A stretch of DNA of 10,233 nucleotides, from the NCBI GenBank assembly GCA_019308705.1, contig JAFDHW010000050.1, forward strand, positions 1 to 10,233, given 5' to 3'. The DNA is from Deltaproteobacteria bacterium (lineage in GTDB: Bacteria > Desulfobacterota > Desulfobacteria > Desulfobacterales > Desulfatibacillaceae). Shown here piece after piece: positions 1,178-8,095 of the stretch. Every line of letters starts with the position of its first letter. The first letter of the stretch is position 1. The notes below the pieces were generated by a model. It did not search any database. It was not told the DNA's origin and was given only the letters and a program-made list of their open reading frames with translations. The position numbers and the translations under genes were made by a program.

Positions 1178-1564
1178 CTATTCCAAAAGCAACTTTATGC
1201 TTTCGGTGATCTGCTCGGCGGTGGCCGGCTTGGGGATGTAGTCGTCCGCTTCCGTGCTCATGCCGTCGTAGTGCGAATAGCGCGTTGACGTCACGTGGCT
1301 GGCCACGGCGGTCAACAGGACGATGGGGATGTCCGCGGTCTTCTCGTCGGCCTTGAGTTCCGCGCACACCTGGTAGCCGTCCTTTTTCGGCATCATCACG
1401 TCCAGCACCAGGGCGTCGGGCGGGTTCCGGCGGACCTTCTCCAGGGCCTGCGCCCCGTCGTAGGCCACGTCCACCAAAAACCCCTCCTTCTCCAGGTAGG
1501 ATTTCACGATGTCCGCGAAATCCGGCTCGTCGTCCACCACCAAGATCCGCTTTGCTCCGGTCAT
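1178..1564 (-). CDS. Single-domain response regulator (CheY-like receiver)
   Basis: The product is 128 residues and consists of one receiver domain with no output domain. The receiver residues are all visible: acidic pair D11-D12, phospho-acceptor D55 in the ALVLDVMMP strand, T85 in IVLLTAVA, and K112 in DDYIPKP. Between T85 and K112 there is an extended, polar loop (about residues 88-108, rich in S, T, H and Y) longer than in CheY. The start is supported by GAGGAGG at 1578-1572, 7 bases upstream. It follows metF by 46 bases on the same strand and is the last gene before the hairpins, so it is probably co-transcribed with hdrA-mvhD-metV-metF. No histidine kinase lies in the window, so its partner and target are unknown. 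A role in controlling or docking to the redox complex is speculation from position only. Confidence 0.9.
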   Translation of the reverse strand: MTGAKRILVVDDEPDFADIVKSYLEKEGFLVDVAYDGAQALEKVRRNPPDALVLDVMMPKKDGYQVCAELKADEKTADIPIVLLTAVASHVTSTRYSHYDGMSTEADDYIPKPATAEQITESIKLLLE

Positions 1565-1610: not shown

Positions 1611-2546
1611 CTAGTCCACGGCAGGGCGCGGATACAGGCCCGATTCCTCCACGATGCGGGGGACCATTTCCTCCCACTCGATGGCCATGATGTGGAAGCC
1701 CGCCACCCCGGGAACCTCCTTCAGGCGCTGGATGGTCTCGATGCAGATCTTGATCCCTTCCTCGGCCTGCTTTTCCTTGGGGGTGTCGGCCATCCGCTGA
1801 ACCACCTCGTCGGGCACGTCCATGCCCGGCACGCGGTTCTTCATGTACTTGGCCATGCCCGCGCTCTTTAGGGGGGTCACGCCGGCAAGGATGTACACCT
1901 TCTCGGTCAGACCCCTCTCCCTTGCCATTCTTATCCAGTCCTCGAATTTGTCAATATTGTAGATGCACTGGGTCTGGATAAACTCCGCGCCCGCGGCGAT
2001 CTTCTTGGCCAGCCGGGGCACGCGGATCTCGTAGGGATCGGCAAAGGGGTTGGCCGCCGCGCCCACGAACATCTGCGGCGGACGGTGGATGTCCGCGCCG
2101 CCCAGGAACTTGCCCTCGTCGCGCATGTGGCGCACGGTCTGGATGAGCTGCATGCTGTCCAGGTCGTAGACGTTCTGGCCCGTGGCGCAGTCGCCGAAGC
2201 TTTGGTGGTCGCCGGAAAGGCACAGCATGGTGCAGATGTCAAAGGCCGCCGCGCCCAGGATGTCGGACTGCAGGGCGATGCGGTTCCTGTCCCTGGTCAC
2301 CATCTGCAATACCGGCTCCAGCCCCATCTGCTTGATCTTGATGCAGGCGGCCAGCGAGCACAGGCGGGTGACGGAAGTCTGGTTGTCCGTCACGTTGATG
2401 GCGTCCACGTGGTCCTTGATGAGGTTGGCCTTCTTCTCCACCTCGGCGATGTCGCTGCCCCGGGGAGGCCCGCACTCGGAGGTGACGGCCAGGTGCCCGG
2501 CGGCGAGGATCTTTTCCAGCTTGCTGGGGGTTTTGGGGCTTGTCAT
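1611..2546 (-). CDS. metF: Methylenetetrahydrofolate reductase, catalytic subunit MetF
   Basis: The 311-residue protein is a TIM-barrel flavoprotein that interconverts methylene-THF and methyl-THF. In anaerobes with a Wood-Ljungdahl pathway this is the step feeding or draining the methyl branch. Family marks include TSECGPPRG near residues 22-30, with E24 in the place of the catalytic glutamate. INVTDN and CLSGDH are typical strand ends, followed by VGAAANPF and FIQTQCIYNI (flavin/folate pocket region) and ILAGVTPL. The reading frame continues upstream to 2933, but the true start is the ATG at 2546-2544. It overlaps the metV stop as ATGA, and the upstream part only shadows metV. The gene directly follows metV, with which it forms the two-subunit MetFV type of the enzyme rather than the E. 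coli NADH-using type. Electrons then come through partner subunits, here most plausibly HdrA and MvhD. Confidence 0.95.
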   Translation of the reverse strand: MTSPKTPSKLEKILAAGHLAVTSECGPPRGSDIAEVEKKANLIKDHVDAINVTDNQTSVTRLCSLAACIKIKQMGLEPVLQMVTRDRNRIALQSDILGAAAFDICTMLCLSGDHQSFGDCATGQNVYDLDSMQLIQTVRHMRDEGKFLGGADIHRPPQMFVGAAANPFADPYEIRVPRLAKKIAAGAEFIQTQCIYNIDKFEDWIRMARERGLTEKVYILAGVTPLKSAGMAKYMKNRVPGMDVPDEVVQRMADTPKEKQAEEGIKICIETIQRLKEVPGVAGFHIMAIEWEEMVPRIVEESGLYPRPAVD

Positions 2547-3211
2547 AGCTTCACGTCCTCCCTGACAACCTTGCGGGGCCCGCCCGCCCGGTCCGTGGAC
2601 CAGTCCTTCAACGGCGTGATCTTCTCGTAGTCCGAAAACCGATCCAGGGCTTTCAGCCGGTCCACGATGAGCTGCCAGGCGCAGTCCACTTCCTTGTTGA
2701 TCTCGCACTTGCCCTTGGTCGAGCCGCCGCAGGGGCCGTTCAAAATCCGCTTGGCGCAGCGGGAGACGGGGCAGATCCCGCCGGTGACGGCCAGGATGCA
2801 GGACCCGCAGGCCTGGCAGCGCTCCGTCCACACCCCCCGTTCCTCGGTGGCCCCCAAAAAGCAGGTGTTCACCCCGGGGTACACGAACTGGGAGTGGTAT
2901 TTCTCGGCCATGAACTGGACGCCCACGCCGCACGCCAAGGAAAGGATGGCGTCGTAGGTGTCCGCGATGTCCCGGATCTCCTCCAGGTACTCATGGTCGC
3001 ACTGGCGCTCCAAGGTGCGCTCGTCGATCTGCACCTCCCTGCCCTGGTTGGCGAAATACATCCGCAACGCCGAGGCCAGGATGCCCACTTCCTTCTTGCC
3101 CCCCGCCTCGCACACGGTGACGCACTCGTTGCACCCCACGATGAGGAGCTTGTCGGCGTCCTTCACCATGTCGACTATTTCTTCAAAAGGTTTCTGCTTC
3201 GCCACGATCAT
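2543..3211 (-). CDS. metV: Methylenetetrahydrofolate reductase partner subunit MetV (iron-sulfur/zinc protein)
   Basis: The 222-residue protein matches the MetV/MTHFR C-terminal-domain family that accompanies MetF in acetogens and other Wood-Ljungdahl anaerobes. There it passes electrons to the MetF flavin. Cysteines fall in two groups. The first is VGCNECVTVC (C27, C30, C34) with C71 and C94 further on. The second is a C-terminal cluster of C132, C135, C138, C147, C152, C161 and C169, including the family-typical RCQACGSC and LNGPCGG motifs. These would hold the iron-sulfur clusters known for this family. The ATG at 3211-3209 has an excellent Shine-Dalgarno sequence (GAGGAGG at 3226-3220, 8 bases upstream). 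That sequence overlaps the end of mvhD, so translation is probably coupled. The stop overlaps the metF start as ATGA, pointing to equal production of the two subunits. Confidence 0.94.
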   Translation of the reverse strand: MIVAKQKPFEEIVDMVKDADKLLIVGCNECVTVCEAGGKKEVGILASALRMYFANQGREVQIDERTLERQCDHEYLEEIRDIADTYDAILSLACGVGVQFMAEKYHSQFVYPGVNTCFLGATEERGVWTERCQACGSCILAVTGGICPVSRCAKRILNGPCGGSTKGKCEINKEVDCAWQLIVDRLKALDRFSDYEKITPLKDWSTDRAGGPRKVVREDVKL

Positions 3212-3224
3212 GGCTGGATCCTCC

Positions 3225-3662
3225 TCAAGCGGCCTGCTGATTCTTTATCTTGGCCTTGATGGGGTTCGGCCCCAGTTCCCGGATATGATCGGTCATCTCC
3301 TTGGCGTAGGCCGCGAACTTCGGCCCCTCGGAGGAGGAAAGGTTGTACATGCGCACCCTCTCCCCGCCCACGCCTACGGCGTCCAGTATGGCGGCCGCCT
3401 GAGCCACGCGTTTCTTGGCCCGGAAGTTTCCGCCGTTGTAGTGGCACTCGCCTTCCATGCAGCCCACCACGTACACGCCGTCCGCGCCTTTTTCAAAGGC
3501 GTGCAGAAGGTGCAGAAGATCCACCTTGCCGGTGCAGGGCACCCGGATGATCTTCACGTTGGTGGGATAATCCAGTCGCATCGAACCTGCCAGGTCCGCG
3601 GCGGTGTACCCTCAGTAATTGCAGCAAAAGGCCAGGATGACCGGTTCGAAGTTGCTGCTCAT
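3225..3662 (-). CDS. mvhD: MvhD-type [2Fe-2S] electron-transfer subunit, selenoprotein
   Basis: Read with TGA as Sec, the product is 145 residues, a normal length for the hydrogenase delta (MvhD/FrhD/VhuD) family. MvhD carries electrons between a donor/acceptor module and the flavin of HdrA. The N-terminal family motif FCCNxC appears as F12-C13-C14-N15-Y16-Sec17, followed by GYTAADLAG and MRLDYPTNVKIIRVPCTG. Further cysteines are C43 in RVPCTG and C68 and C73 in GCMEGECHYNGGN, the other expected cluster-binding positions. The ATG at 3662-3660 overlaps the hdrA stop as ATGA. The TGA codon (3614-3612) stands exactly where relatives have cysteine, and a stem-loop with a G-starting loop follows (listed separately). 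A caller that stops at TGA would report only a 118-residue frame from 3581, losing the cluster motif. The terminal TGA at 3227-3225 is taken as a true stop because the length fits the family. Confidence 0.93.
3577..3614 (-). promoter_or_regulatory. Selenocysteine codon and SECIS-like element in mvhD
   Basis: The TGA is at 3614-3612. Starting 13 bases later on the minus strand, a 7-bp stem (CGGACCT at 3598-3592 with AGGTTCG at 3588-3582) encloses a GGC loop (3591-3589). A further 3-bp helix (CGC at 3603-3601 with GCG at 3579-3577) lies below it across a 2x2 internal loop. The loop begins with G and starts 21 nt after the TGA, matching the known form of bacterial SECIS elements, which lie just after the UGA and bind SelB. 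The fold was worked out by eye. Confidence 0.8.
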
Positions 3663-6600
3663 AGCACTCCCTCCAAAAGAGCATCCACCTTGCTCATAAT
3701 CTGGTTGTCCGCGTACCAGGACAGGGTGATGGCCTTGGCCGGGCACTCGGATGCGCACACCCCGCAACCATGGCACAGGGCTTCGTCGATTTCCGACACC
3801 CCGTCCTCGTTGATCCTGGGCACGCCGAAGGGGCAGGAACGCACGCAGATCAGGCACGACGCGCAGCGGTCCTGGTCCACTTTGGCGGTGACCGCGGACA
3901 GGGTGAGCTGGTCCTTGGACAGGTAGGTGGCCGCGCGGGCCGCGGCGGCCAGGGCCTGGGCCGTGGTCTCGGACAGAAGCTTGGGCCCGTGGGCCGTGCC
4001 GGCCACGAAAATGCCCTCGGTGGCCATGTCGACGGGCCTCAGCTTCACGTGGGCCTCGATGAAATAGCCTTCCTCGTTGGTCCCGAGCTTCATGATGGTG
4101 GCCAGTTCGCCGACGTCCGAAGGCCGCATGCCCGCGGAGAGGGCGAGGCAGTCCGCGTCCACCTGGAGCTTTTTGCCCAGCACGTGGTCCGTGAAGGTCA
4201 CCTGCACGCCGGAGTCGGCGGACTCCACCCGGGGCGGGTCCTCGGGGTCGTAGCGGAAGAACTTGACCCCGGCTTTGCGGGCCTTGGTGAAGTAGTCCTC
4301 CAGAAGCCCGTAGGTGCGCATGTCGCGGTACAGAACGAACACCTCGGCGTCCGGGTTGTCCTTCTTTATATGAAGGGCGTTCTTCACCGCGGCCTGGCAG
4401 CAGATCCGGGAGCAGTTCTTGTTCTCCTCGTTCCTGCTGCCCACGCACTGGATCATCACCACCCGGTCCAGGTCCTTGGCGTATCCCTCTTCCAGCTTGT
4501 CGGAGAGCTGGGTCTGGGTCATCACCCGCTCGTCCTGGCCGTAGAGGTATTCCGTGGGCTGGTATTCCGAGGCGCCGGTGGCCACCACGGTCACGCCATG
4601 CTCGATCTTCTTCTCCACCATCTCCGGGCCCACCAGCACCCTGGTGACGAAGTTGCCCATAAACCCGGTGAAGTCCGTGATGAGCCCGTTGGTGATCACC
4701 TCCACGTTTTCGTGGGCGCCCACCTTTTCCACCAGGTCGGCCACGGATTTCTTGATGTCCGCGCCCTCGATGGTGTGGAAAAGCTTGTTGGCGAAGCCGC
4801 CCAGGGCGGCTTCCTTTTCCACCAGGGCCACGGGGTATCCCTGGTCGGCCAAAGCCAGCGCAGCGGTCATGCCGGCCACGCCTCCGCCGATCACCAGGGC
4901 CTTGTGGTGCACGGGAATCTTCTTCTCGTGCAGCGGGTCCAAGGTGGCGGCCCGGGCCACGGCCATGCGCACCAGGTCCTTGGCCTTTTCCGTGGCCTGC
5001 TCCGGGTCCTTGGAATGCACCCAGGAGTCCTGGTTCCTGATGTTGGCCATCTCGAACAGGTACTTGTTCAGGCCCGAGGACTCCAGGGTGTCCATGAAGA
5101 TGCCCTCGTGGGTCTTGGGCGTGCACGAGGCCACCACCACGCGGTTTAACTTCTGTTCCGCGATGACCTCCTTCATGATGTCCTGGGTGTCCTGGGAGCA
5201 GGTGAACAGGTTGGTGCCCACGTAGACCACGCCGGGAAGCTTCTTGGTGTATTCCTCCAGGGCGTCCATGTCCACCACGCCGGCGATGTTGATGCCGCAC
5301 TTGCAGAGGAACACGCCGATGCGCGGCTCCTCCCCGGTCACGTCGCGCTCGGCGGGGAACTCCACGGTCTTGAGCAACGTGCCCCGCGCCTCGGCCAGCC
5401 CGCTTACAGCCGCGGCCGCGGCGGCGGAGGCTTCCGTCACCGAACTGGGGATGTCCTTGGGTCCGGCGAACACGCCGCAGGCGTACACGCCCGGCCGGGA
5501 AGTGGACACCGGGGTGAAGGGGTCGGTGGCCGCGAACCGGTACTGGTCCATGTCGACGTGCAGCCGGTGGGCAAGCTGTCCCACGGATTCGGGGATCCGC
5601 AGGCCCACCGAGAGCACCACGATGTCGAACTCCTCCACATGGATGTTCCCGGCCTCGTCCGCGTAGCGCAAAGACAGCCGGTTGGGGTCGCCCGGCACCG
5701 GGTCGATGGTGTGGACCCTGGCCTTGACGAACCGCACGCCCTCCTTGTCCCGGGCGCGTTCCAGGTATTTTTCGTAGTCCTTGCCAAAGGTCCGGATGTC
5801 CATGTTGAAGATGGCGCAGTCCAAGTCGCCCTTGGCGTGCTCCTTGGCGATCATGGCGTCCTTGATGGCGTACATGCAGCACACCGAGGAGCAGTAGCCG
5901 TTTCCGCACTGGTTGGTGTCCCGGGAGCCCACGCACTGCAACCAGGCCACCTTCTTGGGCTCCGCCTCGTCCGACGGGCGGACGAGGTGGCCCATGGTGG
6001 GGCCGGAGGCCGAGAGGTACCGCTCGAACTCCAGGCTGGTGAGCACGTTGGGGTGGGACTTGTAGTGGTACTGGTTCTCCAGGGGCGTGGGATCATAAAT
6101 CTCGCTGCCCGGACACAGCACCACGGAGCCCACCTCCAGGGTCAGGTCCTTGGGCTGGTCGTCGTGGATCACCGCCTTGGCCAGGCAGGCCTCCACGCAC
6201 TGGTAGCACTCGGAGCAGATGCCGCACTTCAGGCACCGGGAGGCTTCTTCCAGGGCATCCTCTTCGGAAAACGCGCAGGTCACTTCCTTGAAGTTGCCCT
6301 CGCGGTCCTGCGGCAGCAGGCAGGCAGGCTCCACCCGGGGCTTCTTGGGCTCCTCTTCGGTGTCGGGCTTGACGAAATCCCACTTCTTTTCCCGGCCCTC
6401 GGCAAGGTCCGCGCCGGTGACAAAGCGGTGGATGCTCTCCGCGGCTGTCTTGCCGCTCTCCACCGCCTCCACCACGCTTCTTGGGCCGTAGAACACGTCG
6501 CCGCCTGCGAACACCCAATCAAGGGGGGTTTGCAGGGTGACGGGGTCCGCGGCCAGGCCGCCCCGGGGGGTGGTTTCCACGGACTGGGTATCGGCAAAGG

Positions 6601-8095
6601 AGAGGTCCGCGCTCTGCCCGATGGCCACGATGACGGTGTCCGCCTCCATGTCCGTGGTGGTGGACTCGTCGTACCGGGGATTGAACCGGCGCTGTTCGTC
6701 GAACACCGCGGTGCAGGCCTTGAAGGATACGCCGGCCACCTTGCCGTCCTTTTCGATGAACTCCCTGGGGCCCCAGCAGTTGGCGATCTCCACCTCCTGC
6801 TCCTCGGCCTCGGTGATCTCGTAGTCCCAGGCGGGCATTTCCTCGCGGGACTCCAGGCAGACCATCTTCACGTCCTTGGCACCCAGGCGCTTGGCGGTCA
6901 GGGCCACGTCCACGGCCACGTTGCCGCCGCCCACCACCACCACCTTCTCGCCGATGGCGGGGTTCTTGCCCAGGGCGGCGTCGCGCAGGAAATCCACGCC
7001 CTGGAGCACGCCGGGCAGGTCTTCGCCGGGCACGCCGAGCTTGCGGCCCTTGTGCAGGCCGGTGGCCAAAAAGACCGCCTTGTAGCCGTCGGCCTTCAGG
7101 CCGTCCAAAGTGATGTCTTTGCCGAACTCCACCCCGCACTTGATCTCGACGCCCATGTCCTGGACGACCTTGATCTCGTTGGCCAGGACGTCACGCGGCA
7201 GGCGGTACTCGGGGATGCCCACCCGCATCATGCCGCCGGGCTCGGGAAGCTTCTCGAACACCGTGACGGCGTAGCCCTTCCTGGCCAGCTGCCAGGCGCA
7301 GGTGATGCCCGCGGGCCCGGAGCCGATGACCGCCACCTTGTCGTCTTCCCGCCGCGGCTCGCATTCGGGGATGTACATTTCCCCTTCCATGTCGCGGTCC
7401 GCCAAAAAGCGGTGGAGGTTGCGGATGGACAGGGGCTGGTCCACGTCGTTTCTGGTGCACTCCGCCTCGCAGGGATGGTGACACACCCGGCCGCAGGCCC
7501 CGGGGAACGGGTGCTCGTCCTTGAAGAGCTTCAGGGCCTCCTCGAACTTGCCCTGGTTCATCAAGGCGATGAACCCCTGGATGGAGGGATGGGCCGGGCA
7601 GGTGGCCTTGCAGGGCGCGGTGCCCCGCTTGCTGATGGCGTAGGCCCCGGGAATGGCCTGGGCGTAGCGCTTGAACGCCGCCTTGCGCTCGTTCAGACAC
7701 TGGTTGTACTCGTCGCCCACGGAGATGGGGCACACCTTGGCGCACTCGCCGCAGGAGGTGCACTTGGAAATGTCAATGTAACGCGGCTCCTGGTGGACCT
7801 TGGCGGTGAACCTGCCGGGTTCGCCGGAAAGTTCCATGAGTTCCGCGTTGGTGATGAGCTCGATGTTTAAGTGCCGGCCGACCTCGACCAGTTTGGGCGA
7901 GATCACTCACATGGCACAGTCGTTGGTGGGGAAGGTCTTGTCCAGCTGGCTCATCAAGCCGCCGATGGCCGAACTTTTCTCCACCAGGTACACGTAGTAG
8001 CCGGAGTTGGCCAGGTCCAGCGCGGACTGCATTCCCGCAATGCCCGCGCCCACCACCATTACGGCGCCGGTTTTGGCCTTGTTGTCATCCTTCAT
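3659..8095 (-). CDS. hdrA: Tandem HdrA fusion with inserted GltD/NfnB-like module, selenoprotein
   Basis: Read through one TGA as Sec63, the product is 1478 residues; ordinary HdrA is about 650. Domains in order follow. Unit 1 opens directly with an FAD-binding fold (GAGIAG, 16-21), then [11 protein letters not shown]63[16 protein letters not shown], where relatives have a cysteine. A [4Fe-4S] motif [12 protein letters not shown] lies near 111-123. A GltD/NfnB/DPYD-like module spans about 158-570: [28 protein letters not shown], a first nucleotide fold VIGSGPAG and a second one GGGNVAVD. A cysteine row at 621-637 follows, then unit 1 resumes with WLQCVGSRD and YCSSVCC (718-740). Unit 2 starts near 925 with an HdrA N-terminal domain (GVFLCKCG), a second FAD fold (GGGVAG, about 1070) and QCVGSRN. 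Two [4Fe-4S] motifs (1411-1424, 1441-1455) close it. The ATG has GAGGA 7 bases upstream. It heads the operon; no hdrB or hdrC follows. FAD-based routing of electrons between NAD(P)H, ferredoxin and MetFV is inferred. Confidence 0.94.
7874..7909 (-). promoter_or_regulatory. Selenocysteine codon and SECIS-like element in hdrA
   Basis: The TGA is at 7909-7907, inside [16 protein letters not shown]. A 6-bp stem (CTGGTC at 7891-7886 with GGCCGG at 7879-7874, including two G-U pairs) encloses the loop GAGGTC (7885-7880). That loop starts 22 nt after the TGA and begins with G. It contains GGUC, the same core as the E. coli formate dehydrogenase SECIS loop. Spacing is almost identical to the element in mvhD. 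The fold was worked out by eye. Confidence 0.78.

Follow-up and report, generated by a model that had tools for sequence, protein, structure and literature searches.

The window, a 10,233-nt stretch of DNA constituting contig C260 of a 2.84-Mb assembly (500 contigs, 95.68% complete), carries a minus-strand operon, hdrA(L)-mvhD-metV-metF, whose first two genes very probably each decode one in-frame UGA as selenocysteine (Sec). We hold with high confidence that the best overall explanation of this operon is an Hdr-type methylene-THF reductase of a Desulfobacterales sulfate reducer, with selenocysteine inserted at UGA 63 of hdrA and UGA 17 of mvhD. The find is sound and largely expected, the two-selenoprotein design of HdrA and MvhD having been published in 2006. 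Gene calling under the standard code would truncate HdrA at residue 62 and MvhD at residue 16. The junctions between the genes are 4-nt overlaps or a 13-nt gap, and the features are as follows:

3659..8095, minus strand: hdrA, HdrL type, 1478 aa (translation, Pfam, NCBIfam)
3225..3662, minus strand: mvhD/FlpD, 145 aa, its start overlapping the hdrA stop (ATGA) (PF02662, 170 bits)
2543..3211, minus strand: metV-like gene, PF12225 methylene-THF reductase C terminal (Pfam)
1611..2546, minus strand: metF, PF02219 methylene-THF reductase (Pfam)
7907..7909, minus strand: UGA very probably read as selenocysteine, HdrA residue 63, CxxU (translation, locus comparison, aligned PDB chains)
3612..3614, minus strand: UGA very probably read as selenocysteine, MvhD residue 17, CxxU (translation, locus comparison, aligned PDB chains)
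7873..7894, minus strand: 22-nt block conserved in Sec hdrA, containing the putative SECIS hairpin (locus comparison, folding)
3583..3599, minus strand: 17-nt block conserved in Sec mvhD, containing the putative SECIS hairpin (locus comparison, folding)

A gene for a single-domain response regulator lies 46 nt past metF (1178-1564, minus strand).

Translation revealed a single in-frame TGA in hdrA (7909-7907, residue 63), ahead of a TGA stop at codon 1479, and a single one in mvhD (3614-3612, residue 17), ahead of a TGA stop at codon 146. The contexts, DCAM-U-VISPK in HdrA (motif C60-x-x-U63) and FCCNY-U-GY in MvhD (motif C14-x-x-U17), were exactly those given in an earlier note on this DNA, which had described two neighbouring selenoprotein genes of one operon, each with one TGA in place of a family-conserved cysteine. 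Indeed, in the PDB alignments shown, the HdrA site was Cys in three of four and X in 9sfi, the MvhD site was Cys in two of three and X in 9sfi, and some related loci had TGC or TGT at one or both positions. The X residues of 9sfi occur in its HdrA chain A and MvhD-like chain K, exactly where U63 and U17 align, and we infer that they represent Sec. Chain K has a second X where the MvhD of the window has Cys68, and the HdrA chain of 9sfi, at 658 residues, cannot accommodate the long layout of HdrL.

The two codons were compared across 70 loci collected from 77 genomes, among them the locus of the window, together with the best 80 of 150 matches in a scan of named genomes. Loci were included when the N-terminal HdrA match exceeded 120 bits and covered the site; mvhD was taken from the same strand, 4.0-5.2 kb downstream. 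Removing 16 of the 152 HdrA stretches, which had an identical 79-nt stretch, left 136 distinct loci, whose rows are mutually related, such that the counts are of loci and not of independent events. At the HdrA site, the codon was TGA in 118 of these loci, TGC or TGT in 18 and nothing else. Similarly, in the 111 loci where mvhD lies next to hdrA, the MvhD codon was TGA in 91, TGC or TGT in 20 and nothing else (both sets include the best 80 of 150 named-genome matches). Four loci had two TGAs or an extra TAG or TAA in hdrA (L033, L063, L076 and L078); in each, the second stop fell at residue 1478-1482, where HdrA normally ends. Two loci with a TGA in mvhD and no HdrA N-terminus (L084 and L085) were not counted. 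Also outside the counts, G039:C29 combines a Cys HdrA (TGT) with a Cys MvhD in a different layout, and fits the pattern.

These distributions bear on two other readings of the TGA codons. If they were true stops or sequencing errors, hdrA and mvhD would be broken or split genes. The failure to find selD in the window's assembly, described below, is the one observation in favour of this very remote prospect. Against it, the site is TGA in most copies of both genes and never TAA or TAG, the reading frame continues for 1415 codons in hdrA and 128 codons in mvhD, and the downstream synonymous sites are frozen in the TGA copies only. Remoter still is a change of the genetic code by which UGA would be read as Trp or another residue instead of Sec. 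Nothing emerged in its favour, and hdrA, mvhD and metV of the operon all terminate in TGA, TGA alternates exclusively with Cys codons at both sites, and tRNA-Sec, selA and selB are present in the genome. The alternation of TGA with Cys codons, the frozen codons, the hairpins, and selA, selB and tRNA-Sec lend good support to the description of hdrA and mvhD as selenoprotein genes of a single operon.

In a bacterial SECIS element, the apical loop lies about 16-37 nt from the UGA and has a G among its first two bases. Both genes contain such a hairpin, conserved across relatives in the Sec copies. In hdrA, the hairpin (7891-7874) comprises 7 bp and an AGGU loop starting at the 23rd base after the UGA; in mvhD (3597-3583), it comprises 6 bp and a GGC loop starting at the 21st base. 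The earlier note had placed a stem-loop with a G-first loop 21-22 nt downstream of each TGA. The distances proved about right, and the loop is G-first in mvhD, but in hdrA the G is second.

Folding energy, calculated relative to synonymous shuffles, was much the same in Sec and Cys hdrA (mean z of -0.75 in 117 Sec genes and -0.82 in 18 Cys genes) and so did not tell them apart; the corresponding values for mvhD were -0.66 (91 Sec genes) and -0.13 (20 Cys genes). Moreover, the HdrA RNA of the window can adopt another fold that is more stable than the conserved hairpin (-13.5 versus -10.2 kcal/mol). Synonymous-codon conservation took the place of folding energy as the SECIS test, with synonymous-site identity defined as the probability that two sequences agreeing in a residue also agree in its codon. 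In codons 68-74 of the 118 Sec hdrA loci, this identity was 0.90-1.00 for a gene mean of 0.436, the best of 1133 seven-codon windows; in the 18 Cys loci, it was 0.16-0.63 for a gene mean of 0.431. In codons 22-26 of mvhD, it was 0.94-1.00 in the 91 Sec loci (gene mean 0.457) and 0.24-0.52 in the 20 Cys loci (gene mean 0.435), the latter not being a close control as 12 of these 20 Cys genes are of a distant type.

Among the Sec genes, 111 of 117 hdrA and 85 of 91 mvhD had the complete set of hairpin pairs; none of the 18 Cys hdrA or 20 Cys mvhD genes did (both sets including the best 80 of 150 named-genome matches). Among the six Sec hdrA genes with an incomplete stem, five miss the outermost pair only and the remaining one encodes the second HdrA of L078; among the six such mvhD genes, five miss one of the six pairs and one misses two. 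The second HdrA of L078 (codon at 6306) has TGA at residue 63, TAA at residue 524 and no conserved block (7 of 22 positions mismatched, 4 of 7 pairs), and may be another subtype or a decaying copy. The best control was provided by the mixed operons. In the six loci with Cys HdrA and Sec MvhD, the hdrA block had 3-8 mismatches and the mvhD block 0-2; in the 12 loci with Sec HdrA and Cys MvhD, the hdrA block had 0-2 and the mvhD block 3-6. Thus, the conserved block tracks the Sec codon gene by gene. The stems offered no compensatory changes to use: their pairs are nearly invariant across relatives, so covariation is uninformative either way. No Rfam family reached its gathering score in the window; at a loose setting, P6 matched near the HdrA site at chance level (E 9.6), nothing matched near the MvhD site, and no SECIS family was found.

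Decoding of the two UGAs calls on selA, selB and selC, which the earlier note had set, along with selD, as genes to look for in the same genome, and all three were found: selA at 607 bits, selB at 392 bits and tRNA-Sec at 76 bits, each over its cut-off, the tRNA-Sec with anticodon TCA (ARAGORN). A second tRNA-Sec match, at 48 bits (gathering score 47), is a tRNA-Leu according to ARAGORN. No selD match exceeded the cut-off in the 500-contig assembly of the window. In the 11 genomes searched, this one included, selD was over the cut-off in all ten relatives and missing only here. Two sub-cut-off matches were judged by eye and rejected: L010 was taken as ThiL, with a ThiD-like frame next to it, and L011 as HypE, with an adjoining HypD-like frame. 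DNA of the selD locus of a same-genus genome matched two contigs of the window's assembly. On the orn side, the match to contig C249 runs from base 174 on, near the contig edge. The other flank of selD (EcsC-like by eye) is followed by approximately 1.2 kb without selD and lends no support to an assembly gap. On balance, selD was probably lost in assembly. The selD genes of the ten relatives (L166-L175) have one in-frame TGA each, and their SelD is itself probably a selenoprotein.

The domain order of HdrA is a flavin domain containing U63, a GltD-like NAD(P)H/FAD insert, a second flavin domain and C-terminal 4Fe-4S domains. Residues 10-160 align to the flavin domain of 5odc HdrA. The insert spans approximately residues 155-560 (Fer4_20 at 158-237 and Pyr_redox_2 at 253-548 by Pfam), GltD-type matches cover about 152-659, and HdrA/HdrA2 models cover residues 925-1475. 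The protein is of the HdrL type in that the GltD-like domain lies between two HdrA flavin domains. Among NCBIfam models, HdrA2 scored 941 bits, below its cut-off of 1100, and PRK12771 scored 543 bits, above its cut-off of 516. The VhuD model matched MvhD at 181 bits, below its cut-off of 215.

HdrA and MvhD are encoded together with MetV and MetF: metV starts 13 nt past mvhD, and its TGA stop overlaps the start of metF. The earlier note was silent about metV and metF, which favour methylene-THF reduction over a hydrogenase. Across the 85 Sec/Sec loci, metV was present in 79 and metF in 77; the six without metV have just 4.7-5.6 kb of DNA past the HdrA codon, and its absence there likely reflects the contig end. 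With both met genes in the operon, the encoded enzyme is most likely an Hdr-type methylene-THF reductase, by which we mean that it would work like that enzyme and not that it is a full member of the group. Pfam scans of seven window genes revealed neither hdrB nor hdrC.

The complex could alternatively be an Mvh-hydrogenase- or formate-linked Hdr, with metVF as mere neighbours. This reading draws on the name of mvhD, which is that of a hydrogenase subunit, and on Desulfobacterium autotrophicum HRM2, whose HdrA/HdrL-MvhD pairs adjoin other enzymes in the available text of PMC2702500. We consider it improbable given the close spacing of mvhD, metV and metF, the recurrence of metV in the Sec/Sec loci, and the pull-downs from Sporomusa in which MetVF interacted with HdrA (PMC9430772, in the text available). 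In addition, besides mvhD, no hydrogenase family was found among the seven Pfam-scanned window genes.

An Hdr-type methylene-THF reductase has been put forward for Moorella. Work on the Sporomusa enzyme revealed interactions among HdrA, MvhD and the MetVF subunits in pull-downs, but the whole complex resisted purification (PMC9430772, in the part available). As described there, the Moorella HdrA, with residues numbered up to 1487, has a TrxR-GltD-TrxR layout and is accompanied by MvhD and MetVF, as in the window. However, the Moorella operon has hdrBC and the Sporomusa complex has hdrB/hdrC, neither of which occurs in the window operon.

Sec pairs of this kind are known from several lineages. 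Operons that encode both HdrA and FrhD (=MvhD) as selenoproteins were described from archaea and deltaproteobacteria by Zhang et al. 2006 (PMC1794560, available in part). As here, hdrA and mvhD (frhD) are adjacent in the operons of Syntrophobacter, Desulfotalea and methanogens, both are Sec in the deltaproteobacteria, and Sec/Cys changes were inferred in both families. Those operons carry frhG/frhA (and glpC in bacteria), whereas the window operon carries metV-metF. The same text lists HdrA and FrhD as selenoproteins of Moorella thermoacetica, by family; they may be those of the MetVF operon, with Sec at the residues matching 63 and 17. In HRM2, Strittmatter et al. 2009 (PMC2702500, available in part) reported Sec hdrA/hdrL genes and four Sec mvhD genes, with mvhD after the hdrA/hdrL genes except hdrA4. 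HdrL1 and HdrL3 of that strain are Sec fusions of HdrA with glutamate synthase followed by mvhD, like the window operon, but HdrL1 adjoins dsrABC and a metVF neighbour is not mentioned in the available text. In Desulfococcus multivorans, Sec occurs in an hdrA and in an mvhD that lie at different places, as judged from the locus numbers in the text available (PMC5109826). A 2026 review (PMC13188914, available in part) gives CxxU for both families and an frhA-frhD-hdrA operon. In the literature searched, largely outside subscription journals and in part as partial texts, the Desulfobacterales operon hdrL-mvhD-metVF with Sec in both genes was not found described as such, and nothing usable emerged on the exact role of the Sec/Cys site of HdrA, including any part as an iron-sulfur cluster ligand.

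By analogy with the Moorella and Sporomusa complexes and from the gene content, MvhD and the flavin domains of HdrA would link MetVF electronically to NAD(P)H/ferredoxin, probably by electron bifurcation or confurcation, as part of the Wood-Ljungdahl pathway operating towards either acetyl-CoA oxidation or CO2 fixation. The genome of the window contains dsrA (575 bits) and CODH/ACS (CdhC, 245 bits). During translation, SelB and tRNA-Sec would decode UGA 63 of hdrA and UGA 17 of mvhD with the aid of the SECIS hairpin just downstream. Each Sec would take the place of the second Cys in a CxxC motif, and should make this position quicker or more effective in redox chemistry or metal binding. The complex is likely central to how carbon and electrons flow in sulfate reducers.

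The earlier note had further suggested that Sec at both sites, which it took for cluster-ligand positions, has a shared functional reason such as potential tuning or faster electron transfer. This interpretation is supported in part. Both genes are very probably Sec here and either residue may ligate an iron-sulfur cluster, but such pairing had been published by 2006, and the state of one site does not fix that of the other. Specifically, among 111 operons, including the best 80 of 150 named-genome matches, HdrA/MvhD was Sec/Sec in 85, Cys/Cys in 8, Sec/Cys in 12 and Cys/Sec in 6. Because of the 12 and 6 mixed operons, Sec at one site appears unnecessary for Sec at the other, judging from the codons.

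A quick tree built from 127 HdrA proteins, 17 of them Cys rows, put 16 of these Cys rows in one 17-row group with support 100, which includes one Sec row (L068); the remaining Cys row (L123) was placed elsewhere. The MvhD of this group varies from row to row, Sec and Cys forms both occurring. The Sec HdrA of L068 (G022:C20) sits on a long branch in the Cys-HdrA clade and has the motif SPVLVEV, like L065 and L067 of another clade; recombination or misplacement is possible. Eleven of the 12 Sec/Cys rows (L063-L065, L067, L069, L072, L073, L075-L078) form one clade, a sister clade of long HdrA, together with two Sec rows in which no mvhD was seen (L070 and L071). The MvhD of the 12 Sec/Cys operons is of a distant type (39-44% identity), and in none of the 12 was a metV detected beyond it; these operons may encode a different enzyme. 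In L063 and L078, a second HdrA follows the Sec HdrA. The opposite combination, Cys HdrA with Sec MvhD, occurs at L061, L062, L144, L148, L153 and L154, and five of these six operons have metV.

That the two sites of the Sec/Sec pair act as one functional unit with shared potential tuning is unlikely. It is consistent with the 93 of 111 operons whose sites match, and the Sec/Cys operons would weigh less against it if they do encode another enzyme. Nevertheless, much of the matching is explained by shared ancestry, both kinds of mixed operon occur, metV accompanies most of those with Cys HdrA and Sec MvhD, and MvhD varies between Sec and Cys by row inside the Cys-HdrA clade. A more novel reading, though less likely than not, is that Sec is gained and lost at the HdrA and MvhD sites independently, with Desulfobacterales keeping Sec and Cys HdrL-MvhD in one genome as selenium-responsive isoenzymes. 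If so, the UU, UC, CU and CC operons would constitute a natural series in which the effect of Sec could be measured at each site apart. Several genomes contain both forms, among them G002 (L027 Sec/Sec and L054 Cys/Cys), G035 (L020 Sec/Sec and L061 Cys/Sec) and G055 (L034 Sec/Sec and L062 Cys/Sec). The window's own genome contains a second HdrA homologue (G000:C343:183-2735), which matches residues 628-1476 only and has a TAA, with no TGA inside the match.
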